64,000 bases of DNA from Manis javanica (Eukaryota; Chordata; Mammalia; Pholidota; Manidae): assembly GCF_040802235.1 (NCBI RefSeq), contig NC_133163.1, positions 69,801,501-69,865,500 on the forward strand. The letters run 5' to 3'. The translations under genes and the position numbers were made by a program. Shown in pieces: positions 10,503 to 60,867 of the stretch (the first letter of the stretch is position 1; every line of letters begins with the position of its first letter). The notes beneath the pieces are model-generated. The model saw nothing but the letters and a program-made list of their open reading frames with translations. It did no database searches and was not told the DNA's origin.

Positions 10503-10859
10503 GCAGGATTACTCCCTGATAGGATAAAACTAACTGTAAATCAACTATTAATGCATGCTTTAAATATCCTTAATTTAGACCACTTAAAGGGTGTCAGATG
10601 ATCCGCTATGGAGGTACACTTTTCTGATAATATTCCTTTCTCTTAATAAAAAAAAAATAAGCAGTTCCTGTGTGATGACCTCCAATGAGTTCTACACAAT
10701 GATATAAAGGGCATATCAAAGTGTGGGCAAAGGGTCTGTTTGTGTTTATACAGAGGATCAAAGCCTAATTTGCCTACCCAGAAAATGAACTAACATACGA
10801 TATGAAGAACTTCCAACATCAGCACTCTCTGGAAAAGTCATTCCAGAAGATGATCATCA

Positions 10860-12306: not shown

Positions 12307-12320
12307 AAAAATATATATAT

Positions 12321-12390
12321 ATATATCAAATCATGTTGTTTATCTAAAGCTAGTATAATGTTGCATGTTATATCTCAACTAGAAAAAGAA
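12321..12390 (+). mobile_element. Resumed 3' end of the older L1 split by copy 1
   Basis: This continues the element at 3,645-4,311. The words ATATAATGTTGCATGTTATA and TATCTCAACTAGAAAAAG correspond to the usual last 60 bases of old L1 3' ends. The first eight bases repeat the left target site. Confidence 0.7.
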
Positions 12391-22625: not shown

Positions 22626-23354
22626 CATTCTAGAAAGCAGTATGGAGGTGCCTCAAAAAACTAAAAATAGAAATATGGTTTGACCCAGGAATTCCACCCC
22701 TAAGAATTTAGCCTAAGAAAGCAGGATCCCAGTTTCAAAAAGACATATGCACCCCTATGTTTATCGCAGCACTATTTACAACAGCCAAGAAATGGAAGCA
22801 ACTTAAGTGTTCATCAGTAGATGAATGGATAAAAAAGATGTGGTACATATACACAATGGAATATTATTCAGCCATAAGAACAAAACAAATCCTACCATTT
22901 GCAACAACATGGATGGAGCTAGAGAGTATTATGCTCAGTAAAATAAGCCAGGTGGAGAAAGTTAAGTATCAAATGATTTCACTCATCTGTGGAGTATAAG
23001 AACAAAGCAAAAGCTGAAAGAACAAAACAGCAGCAGACCCACAGAACCCAAGAATGGACTAACAATTGCCAAAGGGAAAGGGACTGGGGAGGGTGGGTGG
23101 GAAGGTAGGGAGAAGGGGAATAAAGGGCATTATGATTAGCACACATAATATAGGGGGGCACAGGGAAGGCAGTATAACACAGAGAAGACAAGTAGTGACT
23201 CTATAGCATATTACTACACTGATGGACAATGACTGTAATGGAGTATGTGGTGGGGACTTCATAATGGGGGCAATCTTGTAACTACAATGTTGCTCATGTA
23301 ATTGTATATTAATTATACCAAAATAAAAAAATAAACTATAAACTAAAAAAAAAA
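22626..23354 (+). mobile_element. 5'-truncated L1 without the ERV tail
   Basis: It starts inside the last 120 codons of ORF2; the block 22,757-22,999 encodes [20 protein letters not shown] and the L1 C-terminus. It continues through the G-rich 3' UTR to an A-rich end (AAATAAAAAAATAAAC, then a run of A). It is related to copies 1-3 but its 3' UTR stops at its own poly(A), with no retroviral segment. It is flanked by a 10-bp duplication. This is the plain L1 3' end for comparison. Confidence 0.9.
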
Positions 23355-24049: not shown

Positions 24050-26503
24050 TACTTAATTTAGCCCTTTGATTAATAACTTATATTGCTATGTGATTATAAT
24101 CTTATTGTTCCTTAAATACCTGACATCTCAAAAAATTTTTAATATTTTTTCTGATCTTTGTTACCATCTTATTTTATTTCAAATACTAGAATATGATCCC
24201 AAACTATAAGTTTTGTTCTCCTGATCTTTCTATGTATTCTTATGTTAGTACCACTCTCTTTCAATTATAGCTTTATAATAACTGCATTTTTCTTTAGATT
24301 TTTCTAATTGAGGCAAATCAGTCAGAGGTGACTGCATAGATTCTACGCGTACTATTCGGCTTGTGATCTGTAGCCACTTTGACTTTCCTAGACTCCCAAC
24401 TGTCTCCACGACTGCGCCAGGCCCGGTTCCACTTGGGGCCCCAGTCATTTCACTGCATCAGTCTCTCCAGACAGCAAGCAGTTGCAGGGCTCATTTTGTT
24501 TTCTTGTCTCAGGATCAATGTTCTTCACCAGCTGATGCCCTGTTATTTTGTATTATTTTAATTGTTTCTGGTGAGAGGTAAATCCCATTCCTATTGCTTC
24601 ATCTTGCCTGGAGGTCACACTTGACGTGATTTAAGTCTACCAGCTTGCTATTTGATTTTGAATGACCTCATTTGCTTTTTTTTCCTCCCTGAGTGTGAGA
24701 GATACTGAGAGTTTCCCTCATCCTAAGTTGGGCAGTTGACAAACATCTGTACAGTAAAAGAATAAATTACTACTAGGTGTTCCTTGGGCCTGTGCCTACT
24801 ATGACTGGGAGACTCTTACATATTGTAGGAAAATGCAGAACATTTAAGTCTATTGAGTATTTCTTATTGTCCAAATCAAGGCACTGCAAGTTTGACAAGC
24901 TCAAGTGCACAGGGGCCCACTCCACTCAGATGCTGACCGTGAGGCTGAGTGGATGTATAGAATCCCAAGCCAAATTTCAGTTGCCTAACAGACAATGACA
25001 GATCCAAGCTTTTTGGAAGCTGAAGCTTATTAATTTCAGGGGTCCTCCTCTTTAAGAATAGAAATTACAAATACAAAATTAGTTACAAAATTGATAGTGA
25101 GTATTTAGAATGAGTAAATAAATCAGAATGAATTACTTGCACCTTGCAAATCTGGGTACCTTTCCCTTAACTTCTCAGAAATTTTCCACAGAAATGCTTT
25201 CTGATTGCAAATTGCTACCTCTTCAGTCTCCCATTCTTTCACCACTACGCTCGCCCTGTTACTCAAAAGTGTAACCCATGGACCAGAAGCATGGGAATTT
25301 ATTCAAAATATAGAACCTTAGGCCACAATTCATATCTACTAAATTAGAATATGCATTGTGACAAAATCCCTAGGTGACTCATGTGCACATTAAAGGCTGA
25401 GAAACATGGCATAACCTGGCTAACTCACAGAACTTAAAAGGTCTCAGCAAGTCAGGGGTTCTGAATCTAATAAAGCAGGATTTTGTGGAAATCAGCTTTG
25501 CAGTAAAGATAACTTCAGCTCACTCCCATTGCTTAGTCTTCTTGCTATAAGGAGAGTTTATTTCTAACTAAATAAGGCAGGATAGTTGTTCTGCACAGGC
25601 TCTATGCAGTACAAGAAAGCATCCCTGCTTATGTATGTAATTCACTGAAGCTTCTTCCACGCTCTGTCTTAACTGCTGATTTCATATTCCGGGATGCAAA
25701 GATAATGACAAACAAAACTGAGTTTTCTTAGCAGCAGATTCCCTCTAGGCAGTTAGAGAAGTTCATTAGATGAATGATTTGATGCTCTGAATTGGGCCTG
25801 CAGGACCTGTAAGTGCTCAAATAGCTCCAGTTAGGAAGAGGGAAGCTTAGGGGATTGTCTTATGGGGAAAACCCTGGAAAGCAAGAGGGGGGCTTAGTAG
25901 TTACAAAGTAAAGAGGAATGTGGGGGAAATACAAATCTCTAATGAGATGCTTTGCTAGGTTGTTTGCTTTCTAGTGTGTGGCATAAATCCTCTGCTCTGT
26001 GTCCCTAAGAATCTTCTGTAAAATCTACTTTGCACCCTAGAGCTCTTTTGGAGTGGATTTTCTTTTTTAGAAGAAAAACTGCTGGGCCCTGCTGTGAAGT
26101 TAGCATAAAGCAAAACTACAGGCTGTGCACAAAAGGGCAGCTGCCTGTGAGTTGCTGCATGCCCGGTGGCCTCTCCCATCCACCACCCCCCTTCGTTAGA
26201 GGGCTGAGTCCTGTGGACTTGGGGGCACAGAGCCCTTCTGATGAAGATGGGGATCAATGAGCCCTCCCCAATTCAAAAGGTGCTCTGCACTGTGGGAAGG
26301 GCTGGTTGCACTGACGATTTTGAGTGTTTCAATCACAGAAGCCTCATCCTTTTTATCTTATTTGCCCCAATTTCGTATTTCAGGGTTAATAATTGGTCAA
26401 AGCTACAGTATGTACTACAGGTTGTGTTCTTGTTCATCTTTGTTAATCCTGTGAATCTCGGAGGCCTTCCTGATTCTATCAGTGGATGATTCAGGACAGA
26501 TAA
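24050..26503. other. Unique non-coding sequence with a possible small L1 scrap
   Basis: No gene recognised. About 24,205-24,300 resembles a reverse-strand ancient L1 fragment (TATGTTAGTACCACTCTCTT), at low confidence. The remainder has only short frames. Confidence 0.4.
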
Positions 26504-26734
26504 TCAGGTACTACTTGCTAGAGTACCTTTCAGGAAACTAAAAATAATTCTGTGGTAGGAAAACTTGCTGATATGCAAGAATTTCCAAATTTGTGTAAAA
26601 GGCAATAATCACTTTATAATATTTTCTGAAACTACTTAGGGAAATTTCATGTAGAAAAATTAGCTCTGATAAAAATGCTTTAAAAAAAAGAAGAGAGAAG
26701 ATTTTACTTTTGTCAACTGTGTACATACAGATGG
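26504..26734 (-). repeat. Left arm of a 231-bp inverted repeat
   Basis: Reverse complement of 28,200-28,430, with about seven differences in 231 bases by eye. The arms start TCAGGTACTACTTGCTAGAG and end at ACATACAGATGG. The spacer is 1,465 bp. Both arms keep a 62-codon open frame with only a few residue changes, which reflects recent duplication and does not imply coding. Confidence 0.88.
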
Positions 26735-28199: not shown

Positions 28200-28430
28200 C
28201 CACCTGTATGTACACAGTTGACAGAAGTAAAATCTTCTCTCTTCTTTTTTTAAAAGCATTTTTATCAGAGCTAATTTTTCTACATGAAATTTCCCTCAGT
28301 AGTTTCAGAAAATATTATAAAGTGATCATTGCCTTTTATACAAATTTGGAAATTCTTGCATATCAGCAAATTTTCCTACCACAGAATTATTTTTAGTTTC
28401 CTGAAAGGTACTCTAGCAAGTAGTACCTGA
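28200..28430 (+). repeat. Right arm of a 231-bp inverted repeat
   Basis: Counterpart of 26,504-26,734. The high identity contrasts with the decayed L1 in the spacer, so the duplication is younger than that L1. Confidence 0.88.
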
Positions 28431-28689
28431 TTCCACATATATGGAAAAAAGTCTGCCCTGTTAGTTTTCTTGTGAATCATTTTACATACCAAATGAATAA
28501 TAGAAAAAAATCAGGCTATGTAAATAGTTATAAAATAGAGAAAAGAGATATATTACTAAATCCTTATACAAATAAAAACTGATACTCAAAACAGATAATA
28601 AAGACAAGACTAACAGATAATATATATAAATATGTATATATGTTTGTAAAAATTATAAATAAAATACTAGTGAATTTAAATCAGCAAAT

Positions 28690-30535: not shown

Positions 30536-30700
30536 TAATCATTTCCACCACATGGATATTTCATCAAACTCTGTCATTCAAGGTGAATTAAGAATCTGAT
30601 TTATCAAATCCATATTTCACATCAATGTGATTTTTTTATGTGGTTTTAGATTCTTCTTTTAGCCATAACTTTTGGTAGTGAAAAAATAGGCTGATTATTT
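30536..30700 (+). repeat. Direct duplication, copy A (165 bp)
   Basis: Matches 31,132-31,295 along its full length with roughly a dozen small differences. Both copies run from TAATCATTTCCACCA to AATAGGCTGATTATTT. It is not a repeat family I recognise. Confidence 0.88.
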
Positions 30701-31131: not shown

Positions 31132-31295
31132 TAATCATTTCCACCACACAAATATTTCAGCAAACTCTGTCATTCAAGGTAATTAAGAATCTGATTTATC
31201 AAATCCATATTTCACATCAATGTGATTTTTTTATGTGGTTTTAGATGCTTCTTTTACCCATCACTTTTAGTAATGAAAAAATAGGCTGATTATTT
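31132..31295 (+). repeat. Direct duplication, copy B (164 bp)
   Basis: Second copy of 30,536-30,700 in the same orientation, about 596 bp downstream. The intervening DNA is not obviously duplicated. Confidence 0.88.
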
Positions 31296-42312: not shown

Positions 42313-42332
42313 ATAAAGAATAGAGTCTTTTA
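42313..42332 (+). repeat. Left target-site duplication of L1 copy 2
   Basis: ATAAAGAATAGAGTCTTTTA corresponds to ATAAGAATGCAGTCTTTTA at 59,048-59,066, with one indel and two substitutions. The match links the two ends of copy 2 across the 8.7-kb nested insertion. Confidence 0.78.
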
Positions 42333-43143
42333 GGGGATGGAGCCATGAGTAGAGTAGCGGAAATCTCCTCAGAAAACCACATATATTTTTGAAAAAACAA
42401 CAAAGACAACTCTTCCTAAAAGAGAGACCAGAAGACACAGGACAACATCCAGACCACATGCACACATGCGAGAAACCAGTGCCTCGCGAAGGGGGTAAGA
42501 TACAAGCCCCAGCCCAGCAGGACCCAAGCGCCCCTACCCCCAGCTCCCAGAGGGAGGAGAGGAGTCTGAACAGGGAGGGAGAGAGAGCCCAGGACTGCTA
42601 AACACCCAGCCGAAGCCATCCACACCAGAGTGCAGACACAGTTCATGTGTGGGGTCCTGGATACTAGGGAAACAGGGCAGCAGGACCGGTGAGCGGATCC
42701 CCACAGCCGGCACCCTGGGGACAAAGAAAAGTGAGTGGTTTTTGGAATTCTTAAAGGGACAGGGACCCCACTGCCAGACGGAAGCATCCTGGGACACTTA
42801 GTCCAGCAGCAGGGAATCTAGGGAACCCTGGGCACTCTAACCCCCTGGGCAGCAGGGAGCTTGGAGGACCCTCATGGAGATAAATAGCCTCCCGGCCGCT
42901 CCCCCTCCAACACGGCTCCACCATATCTGCGCAGCAGCCTGAGGCAAGCCACACCCACAGCAAGAGAGGAGATAAACTCCCATAGCGGCTGGGGAGGAAT
43001 AAGAAGCCCTGTCTGTGCAGAGCTGCCCAGCACAAGCCACTAGAGGTTGCTGTTCTCCCAGGAGAGGAAGGCCACAAACCAACAAGAAGGAAAGTTCTTC
43101 CAGCCTGTCACTCGTGCCAGCTCTGAAAACTATCTCTATCACC
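42333..43143 (+). promoter_or_regulatory. L1 copy 2 5' UTR, YY1 site deleted
   Basis: It starts GGGGATGGAGCC and passes directly to ATGAGTAGAGTAGCGG. The AAGATGGCGGC present in copies 1 and 3 is missing. Only about one monomer unit is present (CTGGATACTAGGGAAACAGG near 42,656). The distal segment with GAGATAAATAGCCTCC (about 42,877) is conserved. Confidence 0.72.
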
Positions 43144-44000
43144 ATGAAAGGCAAAATTTCAGGCAGACCAAGATCACAGAGATAACACCTGAGAAGGAGA
43201 CAGACCTAACTAGACTTCCTGAAAAAGAATTCAAAACAAAAATCAGAAACATGCTGATGGAGATGCAGAGAAATATGCAAGAGCAATGGGATGAAGTCTG
43301 GAGGGAGATTACAGATGCCCGGAAATAGATTACAGAAGTGAAACAAACTCTGGAAGGATTTATGAGCAGAATGGATAAGATGCAAGAGGCCATTGGTGGA
43401 ATAGAAACCAGAGAACACGAACGCATAGAAGCTGACATAGAGAGAGATAAAAGGCTCTCCAGGAATGAAACAATATTAAGAGAACTGTGTGACCAATCCA
43501 AAAGGAACAATATCTGTATTATAGGGGTACCAGAAGAAGAAGAGAGAGAAAAAGGGGTAGAAAGTGTCTTTGAAGAAATAATTGCTGAAAACTTCCTCAA
43601 ACTGGGGGAGGAAATAATCGAACAGACGACGGAAATACACAGCACTCCCAACAGAAAGGACCCAAGGAGGACAATACCAAGACACATAATAAATAAAATG
43701 GCAAAGATCAAGGACAAGGCAAGAGTTTTAAAGGCAGCTAGAGAGAAAAAGGTCACCTATAAAGGAAAACCCATCAGGCTATCATCAGACTTCTCAACAG
43801 AAACCTTACAGGCCAGAAGAGAATGGCATGATATATTTAATGCAATGAAATAGAAGGGCCTTGAACCAAGGATACTGTATCCAGCATGATTATCATTTAA
43901 ATATGAAGGAGGGATTAAACAATTCCCAGACAAGCAAAAGTTGAGGGAATTTGCCTCCCACAAACAACCTCTACAGGGTATTTTAGAGGGACTGTTCTAG
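43144..44000 (+). pseudogene. L1 ORF1 remnant (copy 2)
   Basis: The ATG at 43,144 is followed at once by a 1-bp loss in the A-run (ATGAAAGGC against ATGAAAAGGC), so the start is out of frame with the body. An in-frame TAG interrupts the coiled coil near 43,326. An open block at 43,338-43,853 (171 codons) keeps the end of the coiled coil, the RRM-like domain (NICIIGVPEEEEREKG) and most of the C-terminal domain, up to a TAG replacing a Gln codon near 43,851. The natural stop is 43,998-44,000. Confidence 0.88.
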
Positions 44001-44314
44001 ATGGGAGCCCTCCTAAGGCTAAATAGATGTCACCAGAGCAAATAAAATCACAGCAAAGAAAGCAGACCAATCAAATACTAACTAAAGTCAAAAAATAAAA
44101 TGAACTACCCACTAAAATCAGTTAAAGGAAACATGAACCAGCACAGAATAAAACAACCAACATATAAAGAATGGAGGAGGAGGAATAAGAAGGGAGAGAA
44201 GAAAAGAATCTCCAGACAGTATATATAACAGCTCAATAAGTGAGCTAAATTAGGCAGTAAGATACTAAAGAAGCTAACCTTGAACCTTTGGTAACCACGA
44301 ATCTAAAGCCTGCA

Positions 44315-47300
44315 ATGGCAATAAGTACATATCTTTCAGTAGTCACCCTACATGTAAATGGACTGAAAGCACCAATTAAAAGACAAAGAGTAATAAAATG
44401 TAAAAAAGCAAGACCTATATATATTCTGCTTACAAGAAACTCACCTCAAACCCAAAGACATGCATAGACTAACAGTCAAGGGATGGAAAAACATATTTCA
44501 GGCAAACAACAGAGAGAAGAAAGTAGGGGTTGCAGTACTAGTATCAGACTAAATAGACTTCAAAACAAAGAAAGTAACAAGAGATTAAGAAGGACATTAC
44601 ATAATGATAAAGGGCTCAGTCCAACAAGAGGATATAACCATTCTAAACATATATGCACCCAAGACAGAAGCACCAGCATATGTGGAACAAATACTAACAG
44701 AACTAAAGGGGGAAATAGAATGCAATGCATTCATTTTAGGAGACTTCAGCACACCACTCACCCCAAAGGATATATCCACTGGGCAGAAAATAAGTAAGGA
44801 CACGGAAACACTGAACAACACACTAGAACAGATGGACCTAACAGATATCTATAGAACTCTACATCCAAAAGCAACAGGATATACATTCTTCTCAAGTGCC
44901 CATGGAACATTCTCCAGAATAGACCACATAGTAGGTCACAAAAAAGAGCCTCAGTAAATTCCAAAAATTGAAATTCTACCAACCAACTTTTCAGACCTCA
45001 AAGGTATAAAACTACAAATAAATTCTACAAAGAAAACAAAAAGGCTCACAAACACATAGAGGCTTAACAACATGCTCCTAATCAATGGATCAATGAACAA
45101 ATTAAAATAGAGATCAAGGAATATATGGAAACAAATGACCACAACAACACAAACCCCCAACTTCTGTGGGATACAGTGAAAGCAGCCATAAGAGGAAAGT
45201 ATATAGCTTTCCAGGCACACTTGAAGAAGGAAGAACAATCCCAAATGAATAGTCTAACATCACAATTATCAAAATTGGAAAAAGAAGAACAAATGAGGCC
45301 TAAAGTCAGCAGAAGGAGGGACATAATAAAGATCAGAGAAGAAATAAACAAAATTGAGAAGAATAAAACAATAGCAAAAATCAATGAAACCAAGAGCTGG
45401 TCCTTTGAGAAAATAAACAAAATAGATAAGCCTCTAGCCAAACTTATTAAGAGAAAAAGAGAATCAACACAAATCAACAGAATCAGAAATGAGAATGGAA
45501 AAATCACAACAGATTCCTCAGAAATACAAAGAATTATTAAAGACTACTATGAAAACCTATATTCCAACAAGCTGGAAAACCTAGAAGAAATGGACAACTT
45601 CATAGAAAAATACAACCTCCCAAGATGGACCAAGGAAGAAACACAAAAGCTAAACAAACCAATTACGAGCAAAGAAATTGAAACAGTAATCAAAAAACTA
45701 CCCATGAACAAAGCACCCGGGCCAGAAGGATTTACCTCGGAATTTTATCAGACACACAGAGAAGACATAATACCCATTCCCCTTAAAGTTTTCCAAAAAA
45801 TAGAAGAGGAGGGAACACTCCCAAACTCATTCTCTGAAGCCAACATTACACTAATACCAAAACCAGGCAAAGACCCCACCAAAAAAGAAAATTACAGACC
45901 AATATCCCTGATGAATGTAGATGCAAAAATACTTAAAAAAATATTAGCAAACTGAATTCAAAAGTATATCAAAAGGATCATACACCATGACGAAGTGGGA
46001 TTCATTCCAGGGATGCAAGGAAGGTACAACATTCAAAAATCCATCAACATCATCCACCACATCAACAAAAAGAAAGACAAAAACCACATGTTCATCTCCA
46101 TAGATGCTGAAAAAGCATTTGACAGAATTCAACATCCATTCATGATAAAAACTCAGAAAAATGGGTATAGAGGGCAAGTACCTCAACATAATAAAGGCCA
46201 TATATGATAAACCCACAGCCAACATTATACTGAACAGAGAGAAGCTGAAATCTTTTCCTCTGAGATCAGGAACAAGACAGGGATGCCCACTCTCCCCACT
46301 GTTATTTAACATAGTACTTGAGGTCCTAGCCATGGCAATTAGACAAAACAAAGAAGTACAAGGAATCCAGATTGGTAAAGAAGAAGTTAAACTGTCACTC
46401 TTTGCAGATGACATGATATTGTACATAAAAAACCCTAAAGACTCCACTCCAAAAATACTAGAACTGATATCAGAATACAGCAAAGATGCAGGATACAAAA
46501 TTAACACACAAAAATCTATGGCTTTCCTATACACTAACAATAAACCAATAGAAAGAGAATTCAGGACAACAACTCCATTCACAATTGCATCAAAAAGAAT
46601 AAAATACCTAGGAATAAACCTAACCAAGGAAGTGAAAGACCTATACCCTGAAAACTACAAGTCACTCTTAAGAGAAATTAAAGGGGACACTAACAAATGG
46701 AAACTCATCCCATGTTCTTGGCTAGGAAGAATTAATATTGTCAAAATGGCCATCTTGCCCAAAGCATTATACAGACTTGATGCAATCCCTATCAAATTAC
46801 CAGCAAAATTCTTCAATTAACTGGAATAGATAGTTCAAAAATTCATATGGAAACACCAAAGACCCCAAATAACCAAAGCAATCCTGAGAAAGAAGAATAA
46901 AGTAGGGGGAATCTCACTCCCCAACTTTAAGCTCCACTAAAAAGCCATAGTAATCAAGACAGTTTGGTACTGGCACAAGAACAGAGCCACAGACCAGTGG
47001 AACAGATCAGAGACTCCAGACATTAACCCAAACATATATGGTCAATTAATATTGGATAAAGGAGCCATGGACATACAATGGGGAAATGACAGTCTCTTCA
47101 ACATATGGTGCTGGTAAAACTGGACAGCTACATGTAGGAGAATGAAACTGGACCATTGTCTAACCCCATACACAAAAATAAATTCGAAATGGATCAAAGA
47201 CCTGAATGTAAGTCATGAAACCATAAAACTCTTAGAAAAAAACATAGGCAAAAAATCTCTTAGACATAAACATGAGTGACCTCTTCTTGAACACATCTCC

Positions 47301-48127
47301 CTGGCCAAGGAAAACAAAAGCAAAAATGAACATGTGGGACTATATTAAGCTGAAAAGCTTCTGTACAGCAAAAGACACCATCAATAGAACAAAAAGGTAC
47401 CCTACAGTATGGGAGAATATATTTGTAAATGACAGATCTGATAAAGGCTTGACATCCAAAATATATAAAGAGCTCACTCACCTCAACAAACAAAAAACAA
47501 ATAATCCAGTTAAAAAATGGGCAGAGGAACTGAAAAGACAGTTCTCCAAAAAAGAAATTCAGATGGCCAACAGACACATGGAAAGATGCTCCACATCGCT
47601 AGTTATCAGAGAAATGCAAATTAAAACCACAATGAGATATCACCTAACACCAGTAAGGATGGCTACCATCCAAAGTCAAACACAAGAAATGTTGGCGAGT
47701 TTGTGGGGAAAGGGGAACCCTCCTACACTGCTGGTGGGAATGTAAATTAGTTCAACCATTGTGAAAAGCAGTAGGGAGATTCCTCAAAATGCTCAAAATA
47801 GACTTACCATTTGACCCAGGAATTCCACTCCTAGGAATTTACCCTAAGAATGCAGCACTCCAGTTTGAAAAAGACAGATGAACCCCTATGTTTATTGCAG
47901 CACTATTTACAATAGCCAAGAATTGGAAGCAACCTAAATGTCCATCAGTAGATGACTGGATAAAGAGGATGTGGTACATATACACAATGGAATATTATTC
48001 AGCCATAAGAAAACAAATCCTACCATTTGCGTAAACATGGATGGAGCTAGAGGGTATTATGCTCAGTGAAATAAGCCAAGTGGAGAAAGACAGATACCAA
48101 ATGATTTCACTCATCTGCAGAGTGTAA
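44315..48127 (+). pseudogene. L1 ORF2 remnant (copy 2)
   Basis: The expected ATG is at 44,315 and the natural TAA at 48,125-48,127. Surviving open blocks are the endonuclease part 44,604-44,957 (ILGDFSTPLTPKD, Asn changed to Ser), 45,125-45,955 up to the reverse-transcriptase N-terminus, 46,161-46,820 with FADDMILYI (near 46,403), and 47,272-47,745. A frameshift before the C-terminal Cys-rich motif and several stops inactivate it. Confidence 0.9.
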
Positions 48128-48487
48128 GAACAAAGAAAAACTGAAGGAACAAAACAGCAGCAGAATCACAGAATCCAAGAATGGTCTAACAGGTACCAAA
48201 GGGAAAAAGGGACTGGGGAGGATGGGTGGGTAGGCAAGGATAAGGGGGAGAAAGAAGAAAAGGGGTATTATGATTAGCATGCATAATGTGGGGGGTGGGA
48301 GAAAAGGGTGGGCTGTGCAACACAGAGAAGACAAGTAGTGATTCTACAATATTTTGCTATGCTGATGGACAGTGATTGTAATGGGGTTTGTGGGGGGAAG
48401 TTGGTATAGGGGAGAGCCTAGTAAACATAATATTCTTCATGTAATTGTAGAGTAATGATAACAAAAAAAAAAAAAAGAGAAAGGAAA
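48128..48487 (+). other. L1 copy 2 3' UTR with internal A-rich tract
   Basis: G-rich L1 3' UTR followed by an A-rich tract (48,463-48,487). As in copies 1 and 3, no AATAAA precedes this tract and retroviral sequence follows it. Confidence 0.8.
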
Positions 48488-49078
48488 GGGGGATTACTCC
48501 CTGATGGGATAAAACTAACTGCAAATCAACGATTAATGCATGCTTTACATGTCCTTAATTTTGATCTTTTTAAGGGTGTCAAATTATCAGCTATGGAAGG
48601 TCATTTTTCTGATAATATTCATTTCTCTTAAAAAAAAAAGCAGTTCCTGTGTGATGATCTCCCATAGGTTCTTCACAATGGTATAAAGGGCATATCAAAG
48701 TGTGGGCAAAGGGTTTTTTTTGTGTTTACACAGAGGATCAAAGCCTAATTTGGCTAACCAGAAAATGAACTAAGATACGATATGAAGAAGAACTTCCAAC
48801 ATCAACATCCTCTGGAAGTCATTCCAGAAGATGTTCATCAAAAAACTTCAACAAAGATCCTGGCACTGTTGCAGTTGTAGCTGCATTCATCCACCGGTTC
48901 CTAGACTTACCATTGGAATGAAGAAGGAGATATCTAAGCTGGCCTGTGCATACAGTAAAACAACAAATTTGACTGGATCTATACTGTTGGAACTCAACCA
49001 AGAATTAGGAGAAGTGCAAGTTGTAGTGCTCCAAAATCATGCGACTATAGACTATCTACTGTTAAAAGAACATATGGG
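48488..49078 (+). mobile_element. ERV tail of L1 copy 2, first part
   Basis: Collinear with 55,981-56,590 of copy 3. It contains a second short A-run (48,630-48,639) and an env transmembrane remnant open for about 80 codons from 48,831. It is cut by L1 copy 3 at 49,078. The rest is at 57,802-59,017. Confidence 0.85.
49064..49078 (+). repeat. Left target-site duplication of L1 copy 3
   Basis: AAAAGAACATATGGG is identical to 57,802-57,816. It is preceded by TT, giving the TT/AAAA site preferred by L1 endonuclease. The last G bases could belong to either the target or the L1 5' end. Confidence 0.93.
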
Positions 49079-49367
49079 GGCGGAGCCAAGATGGCGGCGT
49101 GAGTAGAGCAGTGGAAATCTCCTCCCAAAAACACATAGAGCTATGAAAATATAACAAAGAAAAATCTTCCTAAAATAGAGACCACAGGACACAGGACAAC
49201 ATCCAGACCACATCCACACTTGCAAGAACCCAGCGCCTTGTGAAGGGGGTAAGATACAAGCCCCAGCCCGGCGGGACCCGAGCGCCCCTCCCCCCGGCTC
49301 CCGGCGGGTGGAGAGAAACCGGAGAGGTTTTTTTTTTTTTTTTTTTGGCGAGCGCTTTTTGGAAGCC

Positions 49368-50603
49368 TTAGAGGGACGAGCCCCCGTTGCTGGGGAGGCA
49401 GGGTGGCGGGACCGGTGAGGAGGTGCCTGGGAACGGCACCGGAGGACAAAGAATATCCCGCGTTTCTCCCTGCGAGACCTGGGGGCGGGTGCCTGAGACC
49501 GGTGCCTGAGGACGGAGGAGGTCGCGCGTTTTTCCCCTTTTTTTTTTTTTCTCTTTTTGGCGAGCGCTTTTTGGAAGCCTTGAAGGGACGGGGATCCCAG
49601 TGCTAGGGAGGCACGGTGGCGGGACTGGTGAGAGGGTGGCTGGGACCGGCGCCTGAGGACAAAGAATATCCCCCATTTTTCCCTGCGGGACCGGTGGGCG
49701 GGTGCCTGAGACCGGCACTTGAGGACAGAGGAAATCGCGCGTTTTTCCCCTTTTTTTTTTCTCTTTTCTGCGAGTGCTTTTTGGAAGCCTAAAAGGGACA
49801 GGGACCCCGGTGCTAGGGAGGCAGGGTGGCGGGACTGGTGAGCGGGTGCCTGGGACTGGCACCTGAGGACAAAGAATATCCCGCATTTTTCCCTGTGGGA
49901 CCAGTGGGTGGGTGCCTGAGACCAGCACCTGAGGACGGAAGAAATCGCGTGTTTTTCCCCTTTTTTTTCTCTCTTTTTGCCGAGTGCTTTTTGGAAGCCT
50001 TGAAGGGACAGGGAACCCGGTGCTAGGGAGGCAGGGCGGCGGGACTGGTGAGCGGGTGCGTGGGACCAGTGCCTGAGGACAAAGAATATTGAGCGTTCCT
50101 TCCCTGCGCGACCGGTGGGTGGGTGCTTTTTGGAAGCCTTGAAAGGACAGGGACCCTGGTGCTAGGGAGACAGGGCAGCAGGACCAGTGAGCGGGTGCCT
50201 GGGACCGGCACCTGAGGACAAAAAAAAAAAAAAAAAAAATCGCTTGTTTTTTCCTTTTTTTTCCTTTTTTTTTTTTCTCTTTCTTTCTGTTCCCTCTCTC
50301 ATTGTTGCTGTTGTTGTTTTGGTTTGGAGAGTGCTTTTTGGAAATCTTAAAGGGGCAGGACAGGTTACTTAGACCAGAAGCAGGGAATCTGGGGATCTCT
50401 GGGCACTCTAACCCCCTGGGCAGCAGGGAGCACAGAGGCCCCTTACGGAGATAAATAGTCTCCTGGCTGCTCCCCCTCCAATGGGGCTCCACCATTTTGG
50501 AGGAACAGCCCCAGCCAGGCCAAGCCCACAGCAACAGCGGAGATAAACCCCAAAGCAACTGGGCAGGAAGCAGAAGCCCTGTCTGCGCACAGCTGCCCAG
50601 CAC
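49368..50603 (-). other. 411-codon antisense open frame across the monomers
   Basis: An uninterrupted minus-strand frame from an ATG near 50,603 to 49,368. It encodes a Pro/Lys-rich repeated product with units such as PVPGTRSPVPPPCLPS. Two monomer periods are exactly 210 bp and one is 213 bp, all multiples of three, so the frame is kept from unit to unit. Primate L1 has an antisense ORF0 in its 5' UTR, but this frame shows no similarity that I can recognise. GC-rich composition lowers stop frequency, so it may be a by-product. Confidence 0.35.
49390..50230 (+). repeat. Tandem array of about 210-bp L1 promoter monomers
   Basis: The landmark CTAGGGAGGCAGGG (first copy CTGGGGAGGCAGGG) recurs at 49,390, 49,603, 49,813, 50,023 and, shortened, 50,162. 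The periods are 213, 210, 210 and 139 bp. Each unit holds GGGACTGGTGAG-like and CCTGAGGACAAAGAATATCC blocks, a TTTTTCCCC plus poly(T) stretch, and GCGCTTTTTGGAAGCCT. Copies 1 and 2 have only one or two shorter units. Confidence 0.9.
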
Positions 50604-50709
50604 AAGCCACTAGAGGTCGCTATTCTCCCAGGAAAAGGCTACAAACCAACAAGAAGGGAAGCTCTTCCAGCGGTCACTTGTACCAGCTCTGCAAACTATC
50701 TCTATCACC

Positions 50710-51600
50710 ATGAAAAGGCAAAACTACAGGCAGACAAAGATCACAGAGACAACACCTGAGAAGGAGACAGACCTAACTAGTCCTCCTGAAAAAGAATTCA
50801 AAATAAAAATCATGAACATGCTGATAGAGATGCAGAAAAAAATGCAAGAGCAATGGGATGAGATTCAGAGAAAAATGCAAGAGCAGTGGGATGAAGTCCG
50901 GAAGGAGATCACAGATGTCAGGAAAGAGATCACAGAAGTGAAACAATCCCTGGAAGGATTTATAAGCAGAATGGATAAGATGCAAGAGGCCATTGAAGGA
51001 ATAGAAGCCAGAGAACAGGAACGTATAGAAGCTGACATAGAGAGAGATAAAAGGATCTCCAGGAATGAAACAACACTAAGAGAAATATGTGACCAATACA
51101 AAAGGAAAAACATTCGTATTATAGGGATACCAGAAGAGGAAGAAAGAGGAAAAGGGATAGAAAGTGTCTTTGAAGAAATAATTGCTGAAAACTTCCCCAA
51201 ACTGGGGGAGGAAATAATCGAACAGACCATGGAATAATACAGAACCCCCAACAGAAAGGATCCAAGGAGGACAACACCAAGACACATAATAATTAAAATG
51301 GCAAGGATCAAGGACAAGGAAAGAGTTTTAAAGGCAGCTAGAGAGAAAAAGGTCACCTATAAAGGAAAACCAATCAGGCTAACATCAGACTTCTCAACAG
51401 AAACCCTACAGGCCAGAAGAGAATGGCATGATATACTTAATGCAATGAAACAGAAGGGCCTTGAACCAAGGATACTGTATCCAGCACGACTATCATTTAA
51501 ATATGATGGTGGGATCAAACAATTCCCAGACAAGCAAAAGCTGAGGGAATTTGCTTCCCACAAACCACCTCTACAGGGCATCCTACAGGGACTGCTCTAG
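50710..51600 (+). pseudogene. L1 ORF1, nearly intact, one in-frame stop (copy 3)
   Basis: ORF1p, the trimeric L1 RNA chaperone. The ATG at 50,710 and TAG at 51,598-51,600 frame 297 codons including the stop. Residues about 35-125 form a charged heptad coiled coil; residues about 133-175 begin the RRM-like domain (NIRIIGIPEEEE). The remainder, after the stop, holds the C-terminal domain (ARIKDKERVLKAAREKKVTY, then ARREWHD and LEPRILYPARLSF). A TAA at 51,235-51,237 (codon 176) replaces the Ile codon of the other copies; the frame is otherwise open. The coiled coil carries a 33-bp tandem duplication (50,833-50,865 and 50,866-50,898) not seen in copies 1 and 2. A full ORF1p would not be made without readthrough. 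Confidence 0.92.
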
Positions 51601-51795
51601 ATGGGAGCACCCCTAAAAAGAGCACAGAACAAAACACACAACATATGAAGAATGGAGGAGGAGGAATAAGAGGGGAGAGAAGAAAAGACTCTCCAGACAG
51701 TGTATATAACAGCTCAATAAGCGAGCTAAGTTAGGCAGTAAGATAATAAAGAAGCTAACCTTGAACCTTTGGTAACCACGAATCTAAAGCCTGCA

Positions 51796-54700
51796 ATGGC
51801 AATAAGTACATATCTTTCAATAGTCACCCTAAATGTAAATGGACTTAATGCACCAATCAAAAGACATAGAGTAATAGAATGGATAAAAAAGCAAGACCCA
51901 TCTATATGCTGCTTACAAGAAACTCACCTTAAACCCAAAGATAAGCATAGACTAAAAGTCAAGGGATGGAAAAACATATTTCAGGCAAACAACAGTGAGA
52001 AGAAAGCAGGGGTTGCAGTACTAATATCAGACAAAATAGACTTCAAAACAAAGAAAGTAACAAGAGATAAAGAAGGCCACTACATAATGATAAAGGGCTT
52101 AGTCCAACAAGAGGATATAACCATTCTAAATATATATGCACCCAATACAGGAGCACCAGCATATGTGAAGCATATACTAACAGAACTAAAGAGGGAAATA
52201 GACTGCAATGCATTCATTGTAGGAGACTTCAACACACCACTCACCCCAAAGGATAGATCCACCGGGCAGAAAATAAGTAAAGACACACAGGCACTGAACA
52301 ACACACTAGAACAGATGGACCTAATAGACATCTATAGAACTTTACATCCAAAAGTAACAGGATATACATTCTTCTCAAGTGCACATGGAACATTCTCCAG
52401 AATAGACCACATACTAGCTCACAAAAAGAGCCTCAGTAAATTCCACAATATTGAAATTCTACCAACCAATTTTTCAGACCACAAAGGTATGAAAGTAGAA
52501 ATAAATTCTACAAAGAAAACAAAAAGGCTCACAAACACATGGAGGCTTAACAACATGCTACTAAATAATCAATGGATCAATGAACGAATCAAAATAGAGA
52601 TCAAGGAATATATAGAAACAAATGACAACAACAACACTAAGCCCCAACTTCTGTGGGATGCAGTGAAAGCAGTCTTAAGAGGAAAGTATATAGCAATCCA
52701 GGCACACTTGAAGAAGGAAGAACAATCCCAAATGAATAGTCTAACATCACAATTATTAAAACTGGAAAAAGAAGAACAAATGAGGCCTAAAGTCAGCAGA
52801 AGGAGGGACATAATAAAGATCAGAGAAGAAATAAACAAAATTGAGAAGAATAAAACAATAGCAAAAATCAACGAAACCAAGAGCTGGTTCTTTGAGAAAA
52901 TAAACAAAATAGATAAGCCTCTAGCCCAACTTATTAAGAGAAAAAGAGAGTCAACACAAATCAACATAATCAGAAATGAGAATGGAAAAATCACGACAGA
53001 CTCCACAGAAATACAAAGAATTATTAAAGACTACTATGAAAACCTATATGCCAACAAGCTGGAAAACCTAGAAGAAATGGACAACTTCCTAGAAAAATAC
53101 AACCTCCCAAGACTGACCAAGGAAGAAACACAAAAGTTAAACAAACCAATTACAAGCAAAGAAATTGAAACAGTAATCAAAAAACTACCCAAGAACAAAA
53201 CCCCGGGGCCGGACGGATTTACCTCGGAATTTTATCAGACACACAGAGAAGACATAATACCCATTCTCCTTAAAGTGTTCCACAAAATAGAAGAAGAGGG
53301 AATACTCCCAAACTCATTCTATGAAGCCAACATCACCCTAATACCAAAACCAGGCAAAGACCCCACCAAAAAAGAAAATTACAGACCAATATCCCTGATG
53401 AATGTAGATGCAAAAATACTCAATAAAATATTAGCAAACAGAATTCAACAGTATATCAAAAGGATCATACACCATGACCAAGTGGGGTTCATCCCAGGGA
53501 TGCAAGGATGGTACAACATTCGAAAATCCATCAACATCATCCACCACATCAACAAAAAGAAAGACAAAAACCACATGATCATCTCCATAGATGCTGAAAA
53601 AGCATTTGACAAAATTCAACATCCATTCATGATAAAAACTCTCAGCAAAATGGGAATAGAGGGCAAGTACCTCAACATAATAAAGGCCATATATGATAAA
53701 CCCACAGCCAGCATTATACTGAACAGCGAGAAGCTGAAAGCATTTCCACTGAGATCGGGAACCAGACAGGGATGCCCACTCTCCCCACTGTTATTTAACA
53801 TAGTACTGGAGGTCCTAGCCACGGCAATCAGACAAAACAAAGAAATACAAGGAATCCAGATTGGTAAAGAAGAAGTTAAACTGTCACTATTTGCAGATGA
53901 TATGATACTGTACATAAAAAACCCTAAAGACTCCACTCCAAACTACTAGAACTGATATCGGAATACAGCAAAGTTGCAGGATACAAAATCAACACACAGA
54001 AATCTGTAGCTTTCCTATACACTAACAACGAATCAATAGAAAGCGAAATCAGGAAAACAATTCCATTCACCATTGCATCAAAAAGAATAAAATACCTAGG
54101 AATAAACCTAACCAAGGAAGTGAAAGACTTATACTCTGAAAACTACAAGTCACTCTTAAGAGAAATTAAAGGGGACACTAATAAATGGAAACTCATCCCA
54201 TGCTCATGGCTAGGAAGAATTAATATCGTCAAAATGGCCATCCTGCCGAAAGCAATATACAAATTTGATGCAATCCCTCTCAAATTACCAGCAACATTCT
54301 TCAATGAATTGGAACAAATAATTCAAAAATTCATATGGAAACACCAAAGACCCCGAATAGCCAAAGCAATCCTGAAAAAGAAGAATAAAGTAGGGGGGAT
54401 CTCACTCCCCAACTTCAAGCTCTACTACAAAGCCATAGTAATCAAGACAATTTGGTACTGGCACAAGAACAGAGCCACAGACCAGTGGAACAGATTAGAG
54501 ACCCCAGAAATTAACCCAAACATATATGGTCAATTAATATTTGATAAAGGAGCCATGGACATACAATGGCAAAATGACAGTCTCTTCAACAGATGGTGCT
54601 GGCAAAACTGGACAGCTACATGTAGGAGAATGAAACTGGACCATTGTCTAACCCCATATACAAAGGTAAACTCAAAATGGATCAAAGACCTGAATGTAAG

Positions 54701-55610
54701 TCACGAAACCATTAAACTCTTGGAAAAAAACATAGGCAAAAACCTCTTAGACATAAACATGAGTGATCTCTTCTTGAACATATCTCCCCGGGCAAGGAAA
54801 ACAACAGCAAAAATGAGCAAGTGGGACTACATTAAGCTGAAAAGCTTCTGTACAGCGAAAGACACCATCAATAGAACAAAAAGGAACCCTACAGTATGGG
54901 AGAATATATTTGAAAATGACAGATCTGATAAAGGCTTGACGTCCAGAATATATAAAGAGCTCACACGCCTCAACAAACAAAAAACAAATAACCCAATTAA
55001 AAAATGGGCAGAGGAACTGAACAGACAGTTCTCCAAAAAAGAAATACAGATGGCCAAGAGACACATGAAAAGATGCTCCACATCGCTAATTATCAGAGAA
55101 ATGCAAATTAAAACTACAATGAGGTATCACCTCACACCAGTAAGGATAGCTGCCATCCAAAAGACAAACAACAACAAATGTTGGCGAGGCTGTGGAGAAA
55201 GGGGAACCCTCCTACACTGCTGGTGGGAATGTAAATTAGTTCAACCATTGTGGAAAGCAGTATGGAGGTGCATCAAAATGCTCAAAACAGACCTACCATT
55301 TGACCCAGGAATTCCACTCCTAGGAATTTACCCTAAGAACGCAGCAATCAAGTTTGAGAAAGACAGATGCACTCCTATGTTTATCGCAGCACTATTTACA
55401 ATAGCCAAGAATTGGAAGCAACCTAAATGTCCATCTGTAGATGAATGGATAAAGAAGATGTGGTACATATACACAATGGAATACTACTCAGCCATAAGAA
55501 GTGGAAAAATCCAACCATTTGCAGCAACATGGATGGAGCTGGAGAGTATTATGCTCAGTGAAATAAGCCAAGCGGAGAAAGAGAAATACCAAATGATTTC
55601 ACTCATCTGA
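51796..55610 (+). pseudogene. L1 ORF2, nearly intact, one frameshift (copy 3)
   Basis: Endonuclease and reverse transcriptase for target-primed retrotransposition. I take the ATG at 51,796 ([18 protein letters not shown]), which aligns with the start in all copies. The endonuclease shows N15, E42 in QETHL, D144/N146 in GDFNTPL and a later SDHKG. The reverse transcriptase has FADDM with the Asp pair at codons 701-702 (53,896-53,901). One base is lost near 53,941 (CCAAACTACTAG against CCAAAAATACTAG), shifting the frame. The rest reads open through [18 protein letters not shown] (from 55,179) to TGA at 55,608-55,610, three codons short of the stop in copy 1. Otherwise full length, about 1,270 codons. 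Confidence 0.94.
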
Positions 55611-55980
55611 GGAGTATAGGAACAAAGGAAAAACTGAAGGAACAAAACAGCAGCAGAATTACAGAACCCAAAAATGGACTAACAGGTACCAAAGGGAAAG
55701 GAACTGGGGAGGATGGGTGGGCAGGGAGGGATAAGGGTGGGGAAGAAGAAGGGGGGTATTAAGATTAGCATGCATGGGGGGGAGGGAGAAAGGGGAGGGT
55801 GGGCTGCACAACACAGAGAGGACAAGTAGTGACTCTACCACATTTTGCTAAGCTGATGGACAGTAACCGTAATGTGGTTGTTAGGGGGGACCTGATATAG
55901 GGGAGAGCATAGTAAACATAGTATTCTTCAGGTAAGTGTAGATTAAAAATTTAAAAAAAAAAAGAAAGAAAGAAAGAAAA
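55611..55980 (+). other. L1 copy 3 3' UTR with internal A-rich tract
   Basis: The G-rich L1 3' UTR ends in an A-rich tract with GAAA repeats (55,953-55,980). This is where a plain L1 would end, as the copy at 22,626-23,354 does. No AATAAA lies upstream. Confidence 0.82.
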
Positions 55981-56359
55981 GGGGGATTACTCCTTAACAG
56001 GATAAAACTATTGGTAAATCAAAGATCAACGCATGCTTTAAATATCCTTAATGTTGATCACTTAAAGGGTGTCAGATGATCAGCTATGGAGGTACTCTTT
56101 TCTGATAATATTCCTTTCTCTTAATTAAAAAAAAAAAAAAAAAAAGCAGTTACTGTGTGCTGACCTCCAATGAGTTCTGCACAGTGGTATAGAGGGCATG
56201 TCAAAGTGTGGGCAAAGGGTCTGTTTGTTTCTACGCAGAAGATCAAGGCCTAGCTGGGATACCCAGAAAATGAACTAAGATACGATATGAGGAGGAGCTT
56301 CCGGCATCAGCACTCTCTGGAGGACTCGTGCCGGGGGATGATCATCAAAAAGCCTCCAC

Positions 56360-56823
56360 AGGGATCCGGACGATGCTGCGGTTGTGGCTGCATCCAGCCC
56401 ACCGTCTCCTGGACTTGCCATAAGAAGGAGGAGGGAGATGTCTAGGCTGGCATGTGCATACAGTGAGACAACGAATTTGACTGGATCTGTACTGTTGGAA
56501 CTCAACCAGGAGTTGGGAGGGGTGCAAGTTGTAGCACCCCAAAATCTCATGACTATAGACTATCTATGGTTAAAAGAACATATGGGATGTGAACAGATCC
56601 CAGAAATGGGCTGCTTTAATTTGTCTGATGGTTCAAGTACAGTTGGAAAATATCCATCATATCATAGATAAATTTTCACAAATGCCTAGGGTGCCTAAAT
56701 GGTTTTCTTGGCTTCACTGGAGATGGCTGGTAATTATAGATTTGCTTTGTTTATGTCACCGTATTCCTATTATGTTAATATGTGTATGCAAATTAGTTAG
56801 TAGTTTAAAACCTATACATACTT
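56360..56823 (+). pseudogene. Retroviral env transmembrane remnant (copy 3 tail)
   Basis: One frame is open from 56,384 to about 56,671 and covers the heptad-rich stretch and the QN..IDYL segment. A frameshift near 56,600-56,640 moves the second helix, the Trp-rich membrane-proximal part, the hydrophobic span and the tail into the frame 56,589-56,825. The layout fits a retroviral transmembrane subunit. It is incomplete and broken, with no surface subunit or start. In the L1 RNA it would act only as 3' untranslated sequence. Confidence 0.6.
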
Positions 56824-57462
56824 AAGGTACTATACAAGAAGATATGTCAAAGAAATAATCAATCCTCCCAAGTTTCCTTCATATGCTACATCTATAGCTT
56901 TTCTTCTTCCTTCCTAATTACAAACCTTAAATAGAATTCGTGCCTCATATCGAATTTACCGAGTATCATAATTCCTCCAGGTGGTAAAGATACCTCGAGA
57001 CAAGTGCTGGGCATAGAAGCCACAGGGCATAAATCTGCAAAGAAGTTAAAAGCTAACCTTTGCAAACAATATGGCTTCTCTCTCACTTACCAACTTTACA
57101 TTTCCCTGTATGGCCCCGGAAGATGACTGGTTAGCCAGAGACGGGTAAGATTCCTCAAGGGAGGAACAACCTAAGACAGGCACAGTCTCAGGGGGGCCAT
57201 CAGGTGAGAATTTGGGGATCAACAGAGGTGAGGCTCAGAACCTCACCCCCCCTGCTTTGAGAGAAATCTTCTGCATCCGTGGATGTCTTGCTGCCCTTGT
57301 CTAGCCTGGATTAATACTTAGTCCATAGGCACACACCTGATCATCTGATCATCTACATTTGCCTTTTTACAGCACTAAACTATGTTTTCTACCTTTATCT
57401 TGCATCTACCTACCACTTCAGCATTTTATTAAAAATAAAAATAATAATAATAATAGGAGAAA

Positions 57463-57786
57463 TGTGGGATCAACATATAAATCAAGTACAAAAATCAAAT
57501 GAATATTCATATTTGACCTGATGGTTTATAGGTCATATTGCGTGATCAAAACCGAAAGTTTCTGTGATGAATGCCCTTGTACTGTTCACCATGTAAGAAT
57601 TTATTCACTCTGTAAGAATTCGTTCACCATGTAAGAACTTGTTCGTTATGCTTCAGAAGATTGGAGACTGACGAGAATTAGGCTTGAGATGGATTAATGT
57701 TTGTACATTGAGCATTGACCCCCCTATACTGAATTTTATTGTTGTTAACAACCATTTGATCAATAAATATGAGAGATGCCCTCTCA
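57463..57786 (+). repeat. Truncated ERV LTR (U3-R) in the copy 3 tail
   Basis: 324 bp, the same length as the copy 1 LTR. It begins TGTGGGATCAAC after a purine tract and an ATAATAAT run. It has three 20-bp units around ACCATGTAAGAA (about 57,586-57,650) and AATAAA at 57,762-57,767, and ends at CTCTCA followed by poly(A). Confidence 0.75.
57762..57767 (+). terminator. LTR AATAAA polyadenylation signal used by L1 copy 3
   Basis: AATAAA is followed about 19 bases later by the terminal poly(A) of the insertion, so this LTR signal ended the transposed RNA. Confidence 0.8.
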
Positions 57787-57801
57787 AAAAAAAAAAAAAA
57801 A

Positions 57802-57816
57802 AAAAGAACATATGGG
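57802..57816 (+). repeat. Right target-site duplication of L1 copy 3
   Basis: AAAAGAACATATGGG, identical to 49,064-49,078. The copy 2 env remnant resumes directly after it (ATGTGAACAGTTCC). Confidence 0.93.
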
Positions 57817-59017
57817 ATGTGAACAGTTCCCAGGAATGTGTTGTTTTAATTTGTCTGATTTTTCTCAAAATATTCAAATTCAGTAGACAATATCCATCAT
57901 ATCATTGATAAGTTTTCACAAATGCGTAGGGTGCGTAACTGGTTTTCTTGGTTTCACTGGATATGGCTGGTAATTGTAGGTCTGCTTTTGTTATGTAGCT
58001 GTATTCCTATTATGTTCATGTGTGTATGCAATTTAATTAGTAGTTTAAAACCTATACATGCTGAAGTTACTCTACAAGAAGATATATCAAAGAAATAACC
58101 AATCTTCCCATGTTTTCTTCCGTCTGCTACTTCTATAGCTTTTCTTCTTCCTTCTTAATTACAACCCTTTAGTAGAATTCGTGCCTCATATAGAAAATTA
58201 CCGAGTATCATTATTCTTCCAAGTGGTAAAGATACCTCAAGACAAATGCTGGGCATAGAAGCCACAGGGCATAAATCTGCAAAGAAGTAAAAACTAACCT
58301 TTTCAAAGAATAGTGCTTCTCTCTCAATTACCAAATTTACATTTCCCTGTATGGTCCCGGAAGATGACTGGTTAGCCAGAGATGGGTAAGATTCTTCAAG
58401 GGAGAAACAACCTAAGACAGGCACAGTTGCAGGGGGGCCATCAGGTGAGAAATTGGGGATCAACAGAGGTGAGGCTTAGAACCTCAAATCCCACCCACCC
58501 CCGTTTTGAGAGAAATCTTCTGCATCCGTGGATGTGTTGTTGCCCTTGTCTAGCTTGGATTAATACTTAGTCTATAGGCACGCACCTGATCATTTACATT
58601 TGCCCTCTTACAGCTCTAAATTATGTTTTCTACCTTTATCTTGTGTCTACCTACCACTTCAGTATTTCATTAAAAAAAAAATAATAATAATAAGGGAGAA
58701 ATGAGGGAGTCATATATAAATCAAGTATAAAAATCAAATGAATAATCATATCTGACTTGATTGTTTATAGTTCATGATGCGTGATCAAAACCGAAAGTTT
58801 CTGTGATATGACTGCCCTTGCACTGTTCACCATATAAGAACTTATTCACTATGTAAGGACTTGCTCACCATGTAAGAACTTATTCGTTATGCTTCAGAAG
58901 ATTGGAGACTGTTGAGAATTAGGCTTCGAGTTGATTAATGATTGTGCATTGAGTCCCCTATACAGAATTTTATTGTTGTTAACAACCGTTTGATCAATAA
59001 ATATGAGAGATGCTCTC
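57817..59017 (+). mobile_element. ERV tail of L1 copy 2, second part
   Basis: It continues 48,488-49,078 after the nested copy 3: the rest of the broken env transmembrane region (to about 58,064), 3' proviral DNA, a TAATAATAATAAGGGAGAA purine tract, and an LTR from 58,702 (TGAGGGAG, the start mutated) to the cleavage site near 59,017. AATAAA is at 58,996-59,001. Confidence 0.85.
58702..59017 (+). repeat. Truncated ERV LTR (U3-R) in the copy 2 tail
   Basis: Same LTR as in copies 1 and 3, somewhat more diverged, with a small deletion before CCCCTATACAG. It ends at CTCTCA and is followed by an A-rich stretch interrupted by GGTAGTACT. Confidence 0.72.
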
Positions 59018-59047
59018 AAAAGGAAAAAAAGGTAGTACTAAAAAAAA

Positions 59048-59066
59048 ATAAGAATGCAGTCTTTTA
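59048..59066 (+). repeat. Right target-site duplication of L1 copy 2
   Basis: ATAAGAATGCAGTCTTTTA, partner of 42,313-42,332. Confidence 0.78.
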
Positions 59067-59074
59067 AATAAGTG

Positions 59075-59170
59075 CCCTTATTTCAATACTGTGCAACTAC
59101 GTTCAGTAACATCTTCCTCTATGTATGTGTGCATTTACTTTAAAATTTCTCAGAGTCTAGAATTATTCAA
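59075..59170 (+). repeat. Direct duplication, copy A (about 96 bp)
   Basis: It runs from CCCTTATTTCAATACTGTGC to TAGAATTATTCAAAA and matches 60,769-60,867 with few changes. It begins within 10 bases of the right target-site duplication of L1 copy 2. Confidence 0.85.
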
Positions 59171-60768: not shown

Positions 60769-60867
60769 CCCTTATTTCAATACTGTGCACATTACGTTCA
60801 GTAACATCTTCCTCTATGTATGTGTACATATACTTTAAAATTTCTCAAAGAGTCTAGAATTATTCAG
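60769..60867 (+). repeat. Direct duplication, copy B (about 99 bp)
   Basis: Second copy, same orientation, about 1.7 kb downstream. Both contain ACATCTTCCTCTATGTATGT and CTTTAAAATTTCTCA. Confidence 0.85.

Follow-up and report, generated by a model that had tools for sequence, protein, structure and literature searches.

A 64,000-nucleotide stretch of the genome of the pangolin Manis javanica (contig NC_133163.1, positions 69,801,501 to 69,865,500; in the following the window) harbours three copies (A, B and C) of an L1 retrotransposon, each followed by a piece of an endogenous retrovirus (ERV). Probably (at an estimated probability of about 0.78) these copies represent an L1 lineage whose own 3' end is formed by a piece of a defective ERV resembling alpharetroviruses, such that L1 and tail would move as one RNA. 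The three copies have one orientation and, in a three-way alignment, one common layout: 5' untranslated region (UTR), open reading frames (ORFs) 1 and 2, a 3' UTR of about 340 bp and, beyond an A-tract, a tail of about 1.8 kb. The tail begins with about 150 bp, which a second A-run separates from about 1.3 kb of retroviral DNA; a 320-bp long terminal repeat (LTR) piece and poly(A) complete it. An earlier note on this DNA had claimed three L1s sharing the order ORF2, 3' UTR, A-tract, ERV segment and poly(A), and this layout was confirmed by self-comparison of the window and by alignment. The L1/ERV junctions of all three copies coincide in the alignment, and each pairwise match of the self-comparison crosses the L1 end into the ERV part (A/C, 90.8 % identity over 6,959 bp; B/C, 90.9 % over 4,978 bp; A/B, 90.1 % over 4,971 bp).

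Copy A, as delimited by self-comparison and alignment, comprises the L1 with ERV tail and a short A-run at 4,315-12,312 (plus strand, as for all three copies), the tail occupying 10,497-12,305. Copy B is split by copy C: its first part (42,333-49,078) extends from the 5' end up to the position of C in the B tail, and its second part (57,817-59,049) holds the remaining tail and a broken poly(A), by which the end previously given as 59,047 is corrected to about 59,049. The B tail itself comprises 48,482-49,078 and 57,817-59,017; the stretch after C (57,802-59,030) shares 88.2 % identity with A and 87.4 % with C. Copy C (49,079-57,801), an L1 with ERV tail and poly(A), contains an ORF2 piece (51,769-53,949) with the AP-type (apurinic/apyrimidinic) endonuclease and reverse transcriptase domains of an L1 (Exo_endo_phos, E 5.2e-24; RVT_1, E 4e-39), while a broken piece of its ORF1 matches the L1 RNA-binding domain Transposase_22 slightly below the cut-off (E 0.00024; 21.8 versus 22.4 bits). 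Further downstream follow the L1 3' UTR (55,612-55,951), which has ATTAAA at 55,942 and no AATAAA near its end, the A-tract joining L1 and tail (55,952-55,979), a first tail part of unsure origin (55,980-56,126), the second A-run (56,127-56,145), the ERV part with an env transmembrane (TM) remnant and DNA up to the LTR (56,146-57,456), and the LTR piece with 19-base repeats (57,466-57,785), which has AATAAA at 57,762 and ends 18 nt later in poly(A). The copies had been described as full-length, which holds structurally: the longest plus-strand ORFs encode 354 (A), 276 (B) and 726 (C) amino acids (aa), and a whole L1 ORF2 has about 1,270 aa. Since all ORFs are broken, no copy is coding-intact. 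The 5' UTRs vary, C having 3.8 tandem 210-bp monomers (49,329-50,126) and A 1.9 copies of a 153-bp unit (4,650-4,943). No fourth copy of the ERV tail was found within the window; a further L1 of the same kind, on the minus strand with its 5' end at 1-507, is cut by the window edge, so that its tail position lies beyond the window.

The three copies are the products of separate insertions. Target-site duplications were detected as exact words by script and extended by eye on the printed sequence: that of C (49,064-49,078 and 57,802-57,816) is identical in 15/15 positions by script and comes right after TT/AAAA, whereas those of B (42,316-42,332 and 59,050-59,066; 15/17 by eye, 9 exact by script) and A (4,304-4,314 and 12,323-12,333; 10/11 by eye, 8 exact by script) are imperfect. 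Thus, poly(A) and a target-site duplication, as left by target-primed insertion, are present in all three. The four flanks of A and B (about 310 bp each) have nothing in common, and the flanks of C are B itself. Own duplications together with unrelated flanks imply that A, B and C are not segmental duplicates of one another, a relationship which the earlier note had named as speaking against its claim; its statement that the junctions are common while flanks and duplicated target sites differ was borne out by the duplications, the flank comparison and the alignment. Since C interrupts the tail of B, B inserted first, and L1s with the tail must have transposed on no fewer than two separate occasions. 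In C, the 5' end is complete and the LTR piece passes immediately into poly(A), a structure that fits a single RNA copied in one event.

The retroviral nature of the tail was analysed by searching its stop-free pieces individually. A 109-aa piece of C matches the TM protein of avian sarcoma and leukosis virus (ASLV; 4jpr and 5h9c, E 1.3e-6 and 1.5e-6), and the related database protein P0013 matches ASLV TM at 2.5e-9. Judged by these matches, the env in the tail is a transmembrane part of the alpharetrovirus (ASLV) type. Weaker matches of P0013, the relative of the piece at 56,342-56,668 of C, were obtained to other class I envelope proteins, i.e., the GP2 ectodomain 4n21 (3e-5) and 9x3j (0.009), those to filovirus GP2 (0.44-0.6) not being significant. 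Pfam yielded a single weak GP41 match (E 0.026) in one of five env pieces. The segment had been described as running from env to LTR; its LTR piece stood up, while the env is the TM part only, and ahead of it lie some 150 bp whose origin is unsure and the second A-run, which might mark a further junction. A whole surface subunit would not fit upstream of TM. The approximately 150 bp before the TM part may conceivably be the end of pol: for a 36-aa piece of B from this first tail part, all three PDB matches are Rous sarcoma virus integrase, but not significant (E 0.97-1.4), and Pfam gave no match to it; the preceding 51-aa piece had no PDB match, no protein homologue and one unrelated weak Pfam match. 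The LTR piece carries 19-base repeats and has AATAAA 16-18 nt before poly(A) in A, B and C, suggesting that it corresponds to U3-R and lacks U5, like the 3' end of a retroviral RNA. Database searches with the TM piece provided 32 protein clusters (from 36 candidates; 65-97 % identity) on contigs of 502-3,481 bases, which point to many tail copies in some sampled host or hosts. A 36-base LTR pattern had no matches in viral contigs and in genome contigs, and none of 10 matches of a P0013 pattern in viral contigs was confirmed.

An older, 5'-truncated L1 without tail (22,626-23,354, plus strand), flanked at both ends by the 10-base duplication AGAGGTTGTC (by eye), may indicate how the transcript end has changed. 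It shares 81.1 % identity with A, 82.1 % with B and 86.8 % with C over the matched parts (73.7 % with the 3' UTR of C), stops at the A-tract and has no ERV tail. Its end contains AATAAA at 23,322 and 23,330; at the corresponding site ATTAAA is present in A and C and neither motif in B, while AATAAA is present in the LTR of all three chimeras. This shift of AATAAA from the L1 end to the LTR suggests that the L1 transcript came to be ended by the LTR instead.

The divergence of the copies agrees with joint descent of L1 and tail. Kimura two-parameter (K2P) distances (AB, AC, BC) amount to 0.1035, 0.118 and 0.1402 in the ERV part and to 0.173, 0.134 and 0.175 in the L1 3' UTR, those in two ORF2 parts (0.059-0.091) lying below both. 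Tail identities of 0.9039, 0.8918 and 0.8735 correspond to 9-13 % difference. When a patch rich in A-to-G changes in C (see below) is left out, the tail still exceeds the ORFs in all three pairs (0.0943, 0.0857 and 0.1088 versus 0.0835, 0.0689 and 0.068, uncorrected). Third codon positions are the most different in 6/6 comparisons (three pairs, two ORF2 parts), also without CpG sites, implying that the source elements evolved between the insertions. As ORF2 diverges less than 3' UTR and tail, with third positions differing most, some of the divergence accumulated in active source elements; in these, selection would have acted on ORF2, and the 3' UTR and the tail would have drifted. The larger tail differences are as expected for a non-coding part carried through several L1 generations. 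In bootstraps with the patch left out, A and C are closest in the 3' UTR plus first tail part (481/500) and in the tail (421/500). At a rate of 2.2e-9 per site and year, 0.10-0.14 would very roughly place the common ancestor of the tails 23-32 million years ago, a figure inflated by the patch.

On the three copies a shared, inherited chimera is well supported by sequence comparison. The following course of events may be envisaged: an L1 would have been located, equally oriented, upstream of the ERV piece; transcription would have continued beyond the L1 end as far as the LTR with its AATAAA, i.e., a 3' transduction, and the resulting copy would have founded a lineage whose RNA ends by the retroviral signal. 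Several observations weigh against this reading or narrow it. Only three joined copies were seen, all in the 64-kb window, and the contigs of the TM database proteins (502-3,481 bases) give no view of an attached L1. The LTR alone is no more divergent between A and C (K2P 0.0722) than ORF2 (0.0616-0.0725). The ORFs do not back A and C as closest (A-C in 205, B-C in 295 of 500 bootstraps), and the tail including the patch puts A and B closest (480/500). The terminator change is read from the one older copy at 22,626-23,354, since the end of a second old fragment (about 37.1-37.2 kb) is unclear and this fragment was excluded from the terminator comparison. The claim of the earlier note that a heritable chimera moves as a unit is supported in part, by the common junction, three independent insertions, the nesting and the tail divergence; its "successful family" amounts to the three copies in the window.

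Instead of by transduction, the joint could have arisen by template switching, with the L1 reverse transcriptase beginning on ERV RNA and jumping to the poly(A) of L1 RNA, so that no L1 ever lay upstream of the ERV. The A-tract at the joint and the end of the tail at a retroviral transcript end would be accounted for, yet they fit transduction equally, and nothing in the window separates the two; as transduction needs no jump and is the commoner L1 event, switching is considered improbable. In human, families of transductions stemming from a single source L1 have been described (PMC6425141), and the copies could correspondingly form a small, ordinary family from one or a few source L1s, in which the tail never was the normal end of a large lineage. 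Such a restricted origin is opposed by the presence of three copies within 64 kb, by the 9-13 % difference between tails, which implies long separate histories, and by the 32 TM protein clusters; it is even less probable than a template switch. Independent capture of the same ERV piece by separate L1s, or duplication of the loci from one another, is most improbable: no observation in its favour was made, the junction is identical in all three copies, and target-site duplications and flanks differ.

The patch in C spans 338 bp (56,184-56,521, plus strand) and contains 33 A-to-G changes relative to the state shared by A and B. In 56,150-56,570, C differs from this state at 55 sites (33 A-to-G, 3 G-to-A, 5 T-to-C), as compared to 50 A-to-G among 288 changes elsewhere in the element (p 4e-10). 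In a simulation placing 64 A-to-G changes randomly over 2,620 shared A (5' UTR excluded), the maximum reached in 5,000 trials was 14 per 338 bases versus the 33 observed. G is rare before the changed A (1/33 versus 25/94, p 0.0024) and frequent after it (11/33 versus 13/94, p 0.02). ADAR prefers few G before and more G after the edited A, so that both the clustering and the context of ADAR hyper-editing are found here, and the patch is perhaps an inherited trace of such editing of RNA. With less certainty than for the chimera itself, the branch of C may accordingly go back to an RNA in which ADAR had hyper-edited one stretch of the tail. The edited-looking sequence recurs with both its halves in 5/32 database proteins (P0001, P0002, P0003, P0006 and P0020), P0001 and P0002 also showing the frame of an 11-base deletion of C, which implies that C belongs to a sub-lineage. 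The first half alone is present in P0025 and some of the second half in P0023 and P0026, and P0031 looks mosaic; such partly changed proteins may mean several steps or recombination rather than one event. A hairpin of the patch with itself as editing substrate was not supported, as copy A shows no unusual own fold (z 0.15), and none of the 25 longest inverted pairs in C (94 in all) provides a partner for the patch. Without an own hairpin, editing would have required a separate antisense RNA. The 5' UTR is also rich in A-to-G (19/199 shared A; up to 12/31 in one window of it), although its alignment is unsafe owing to the tandem monomers.

The patch may also be read in the opposite direction. 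If C had kept the older state, the ancestor of A and B would have undergone G-to-A hypermutation by APOBEC3, or C would have received the stretch from another ERV by gene conversion. APOBEC3G acts on G followed by G, and in the G-to-A reading the following G is indeed enriched (17/33 versus 17/71, p 0.007); hence context does not decide the direction, G-rich context being found in both readings. The mosaic appearance of P0025 and P0031 would also agree with conversion or hypermutation. On the other hand, a following A is depleted in the G-to-A reading (4/33 versus 25/71, p 0.018), and conversion should not yield 33 A-to-G versus 3 G-to-A. Likeness to ASLV TM, scored at 29 residues outside the patch (frame-shifted proteins not being fairly scorable), provides a root: the highest-scoring proteins P0004, P0011 and P0030 (19/29) group with those of the A/B type, P0030 beginning after most of the patch. 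The edited-looking P0001, P0003 and P0006 (3 scorable of 5) have 13-14/29 ASLV-like residues, albeit several unedited proteins score no better (12-15/29). With the ASLV-nearest proteins A/B-like, the root falls on the A/B side, which favours, without proving, A-to-G change on the way to C; hypermutation or conversion is regarded as somewhat unlikely. The combined reading, in which an L1 lineage handed its transcript ending to a captured LTR, lost its AATAAA and stayed active, and in which moreover the C branch arose from an ADAR-hyper-edited RNA and multiplied in the genome, is tentative, with slightly less than even odds. If due to editing, the patch would preserve a countable record of the editing of an L1 RNA which nonetheless left progeny.

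With respect to the L1 part, the ORF2 piece of C shares at most 71 % identity with the best 120 of 1,846 database matches (top-scoring match 70 %, Rhinolophus), a length limit excluding shorter fragments. A tree of 17 ORF2 sequences places C in a supported laurasiatherian set without horse and outside the four carnivores; its neighbour there is Rhinolophus, at weak support (80/83). The piece had no match in viral contigs and four unconfirmed ones in genome contigs. No tRNA was predicted in the window by ARAGORN, Rfam gave no match at gathering scores, and no family resembling short interspersed elements (SINEs) was noticed in the self-comparison of the window, for which no SINE library was used. 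Pangolin genomes are reported to contain about 0.9-1 % SINEs and 35-37 % long interspersed elements (PMC11825179), and SINEs in pangolin transcripts to be nearly all MIRs (33,009/33,304; PMC5020319). Together with the alpharetrovirus-like ERVs reported from pangolins (PMC12584738), this agrees circumstantially with a pangolin host. Further repeats of the window are an inverted pair unlike the L1s (26,502-26,734 and 28,200-28,432; 233 bp, 97 % identical) and two direct pairs, each about 94 % identical (30,536-30,700 and 31,132-31,295, about 165 bp; 59,075-59,169 and 60,769-60,866, about 95 bp).

Transductions are usually regarded as luggage of single source L1s. The chimeras display the hallmark of a 3' transduction: the L1 end is followed by a segment foreign to L1, which itself ends in a second poly(A), and one duplication encloses all of it. 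They share with described cases the succession of L1, A-tract, non-L1 segment and second poly(A) within one duplication (PMC6425141; PMC12593883) as well as, by the mechanism proposed here, the read-through to a downstream polyadenylation signal. They differ in that the segment is retroviral and common to three diverged copies, and in that the LTR has the only AATAAA found at either end of the chimeras. In this analogy, the chimera would act like a 3' transduction made permanent; if so, a lineage with a retroviral terminator would mean that an autonomous L1 can adopt a transduced piece as its regular 3' end. No account of an L1 family with an ERV tail appeared among the literature matches listed (titles and abstracts, subscription papers being poorly covered), which is not proof of absence. 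A chimeric L1 insertion has been described in mouse Axin1 (PMC6500023). Among pangolin retroviruses, ERV-Alpha of the Chinese pangolin is described as an alpharetrovirus-like ERV in a mammal (PMC12584738) and possibly represents the source group of the tail. The same paper mentions an ERV-Gamma copy that has an L1 between its env and LTR, an arrangement different from the L1-ERV chimera (PMC12584738).

The closest parallel to the tail is the SINE-R part of the SVA elements, which is derived from the 3' part of env and the 3' LTR of HERV-K10 (PMC12593883). SVA elements likewise have an env-LTR 3' end and are mobilised with L1-type poly(A) and target-site duplication (PMC12593883), and an env-LTR-derived 3' part is recognized here from the TM match and the AATAAA of the LTR. 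The chimera is nevertheless not an SVA: the body of SVA is described as non-autonomous, with hexamer, Alu-like and variable number of tandem repeats (VNTR) parts, whereas that of the chimera is an L1 with ORF2 and a presumed ORF1; and the source of SVA is HERV-K10, while the ERV of the chimera is of the ASLV type. If the proposed lineage is true, an SVA-like use of an env-LTR tail would have arisen more than once.

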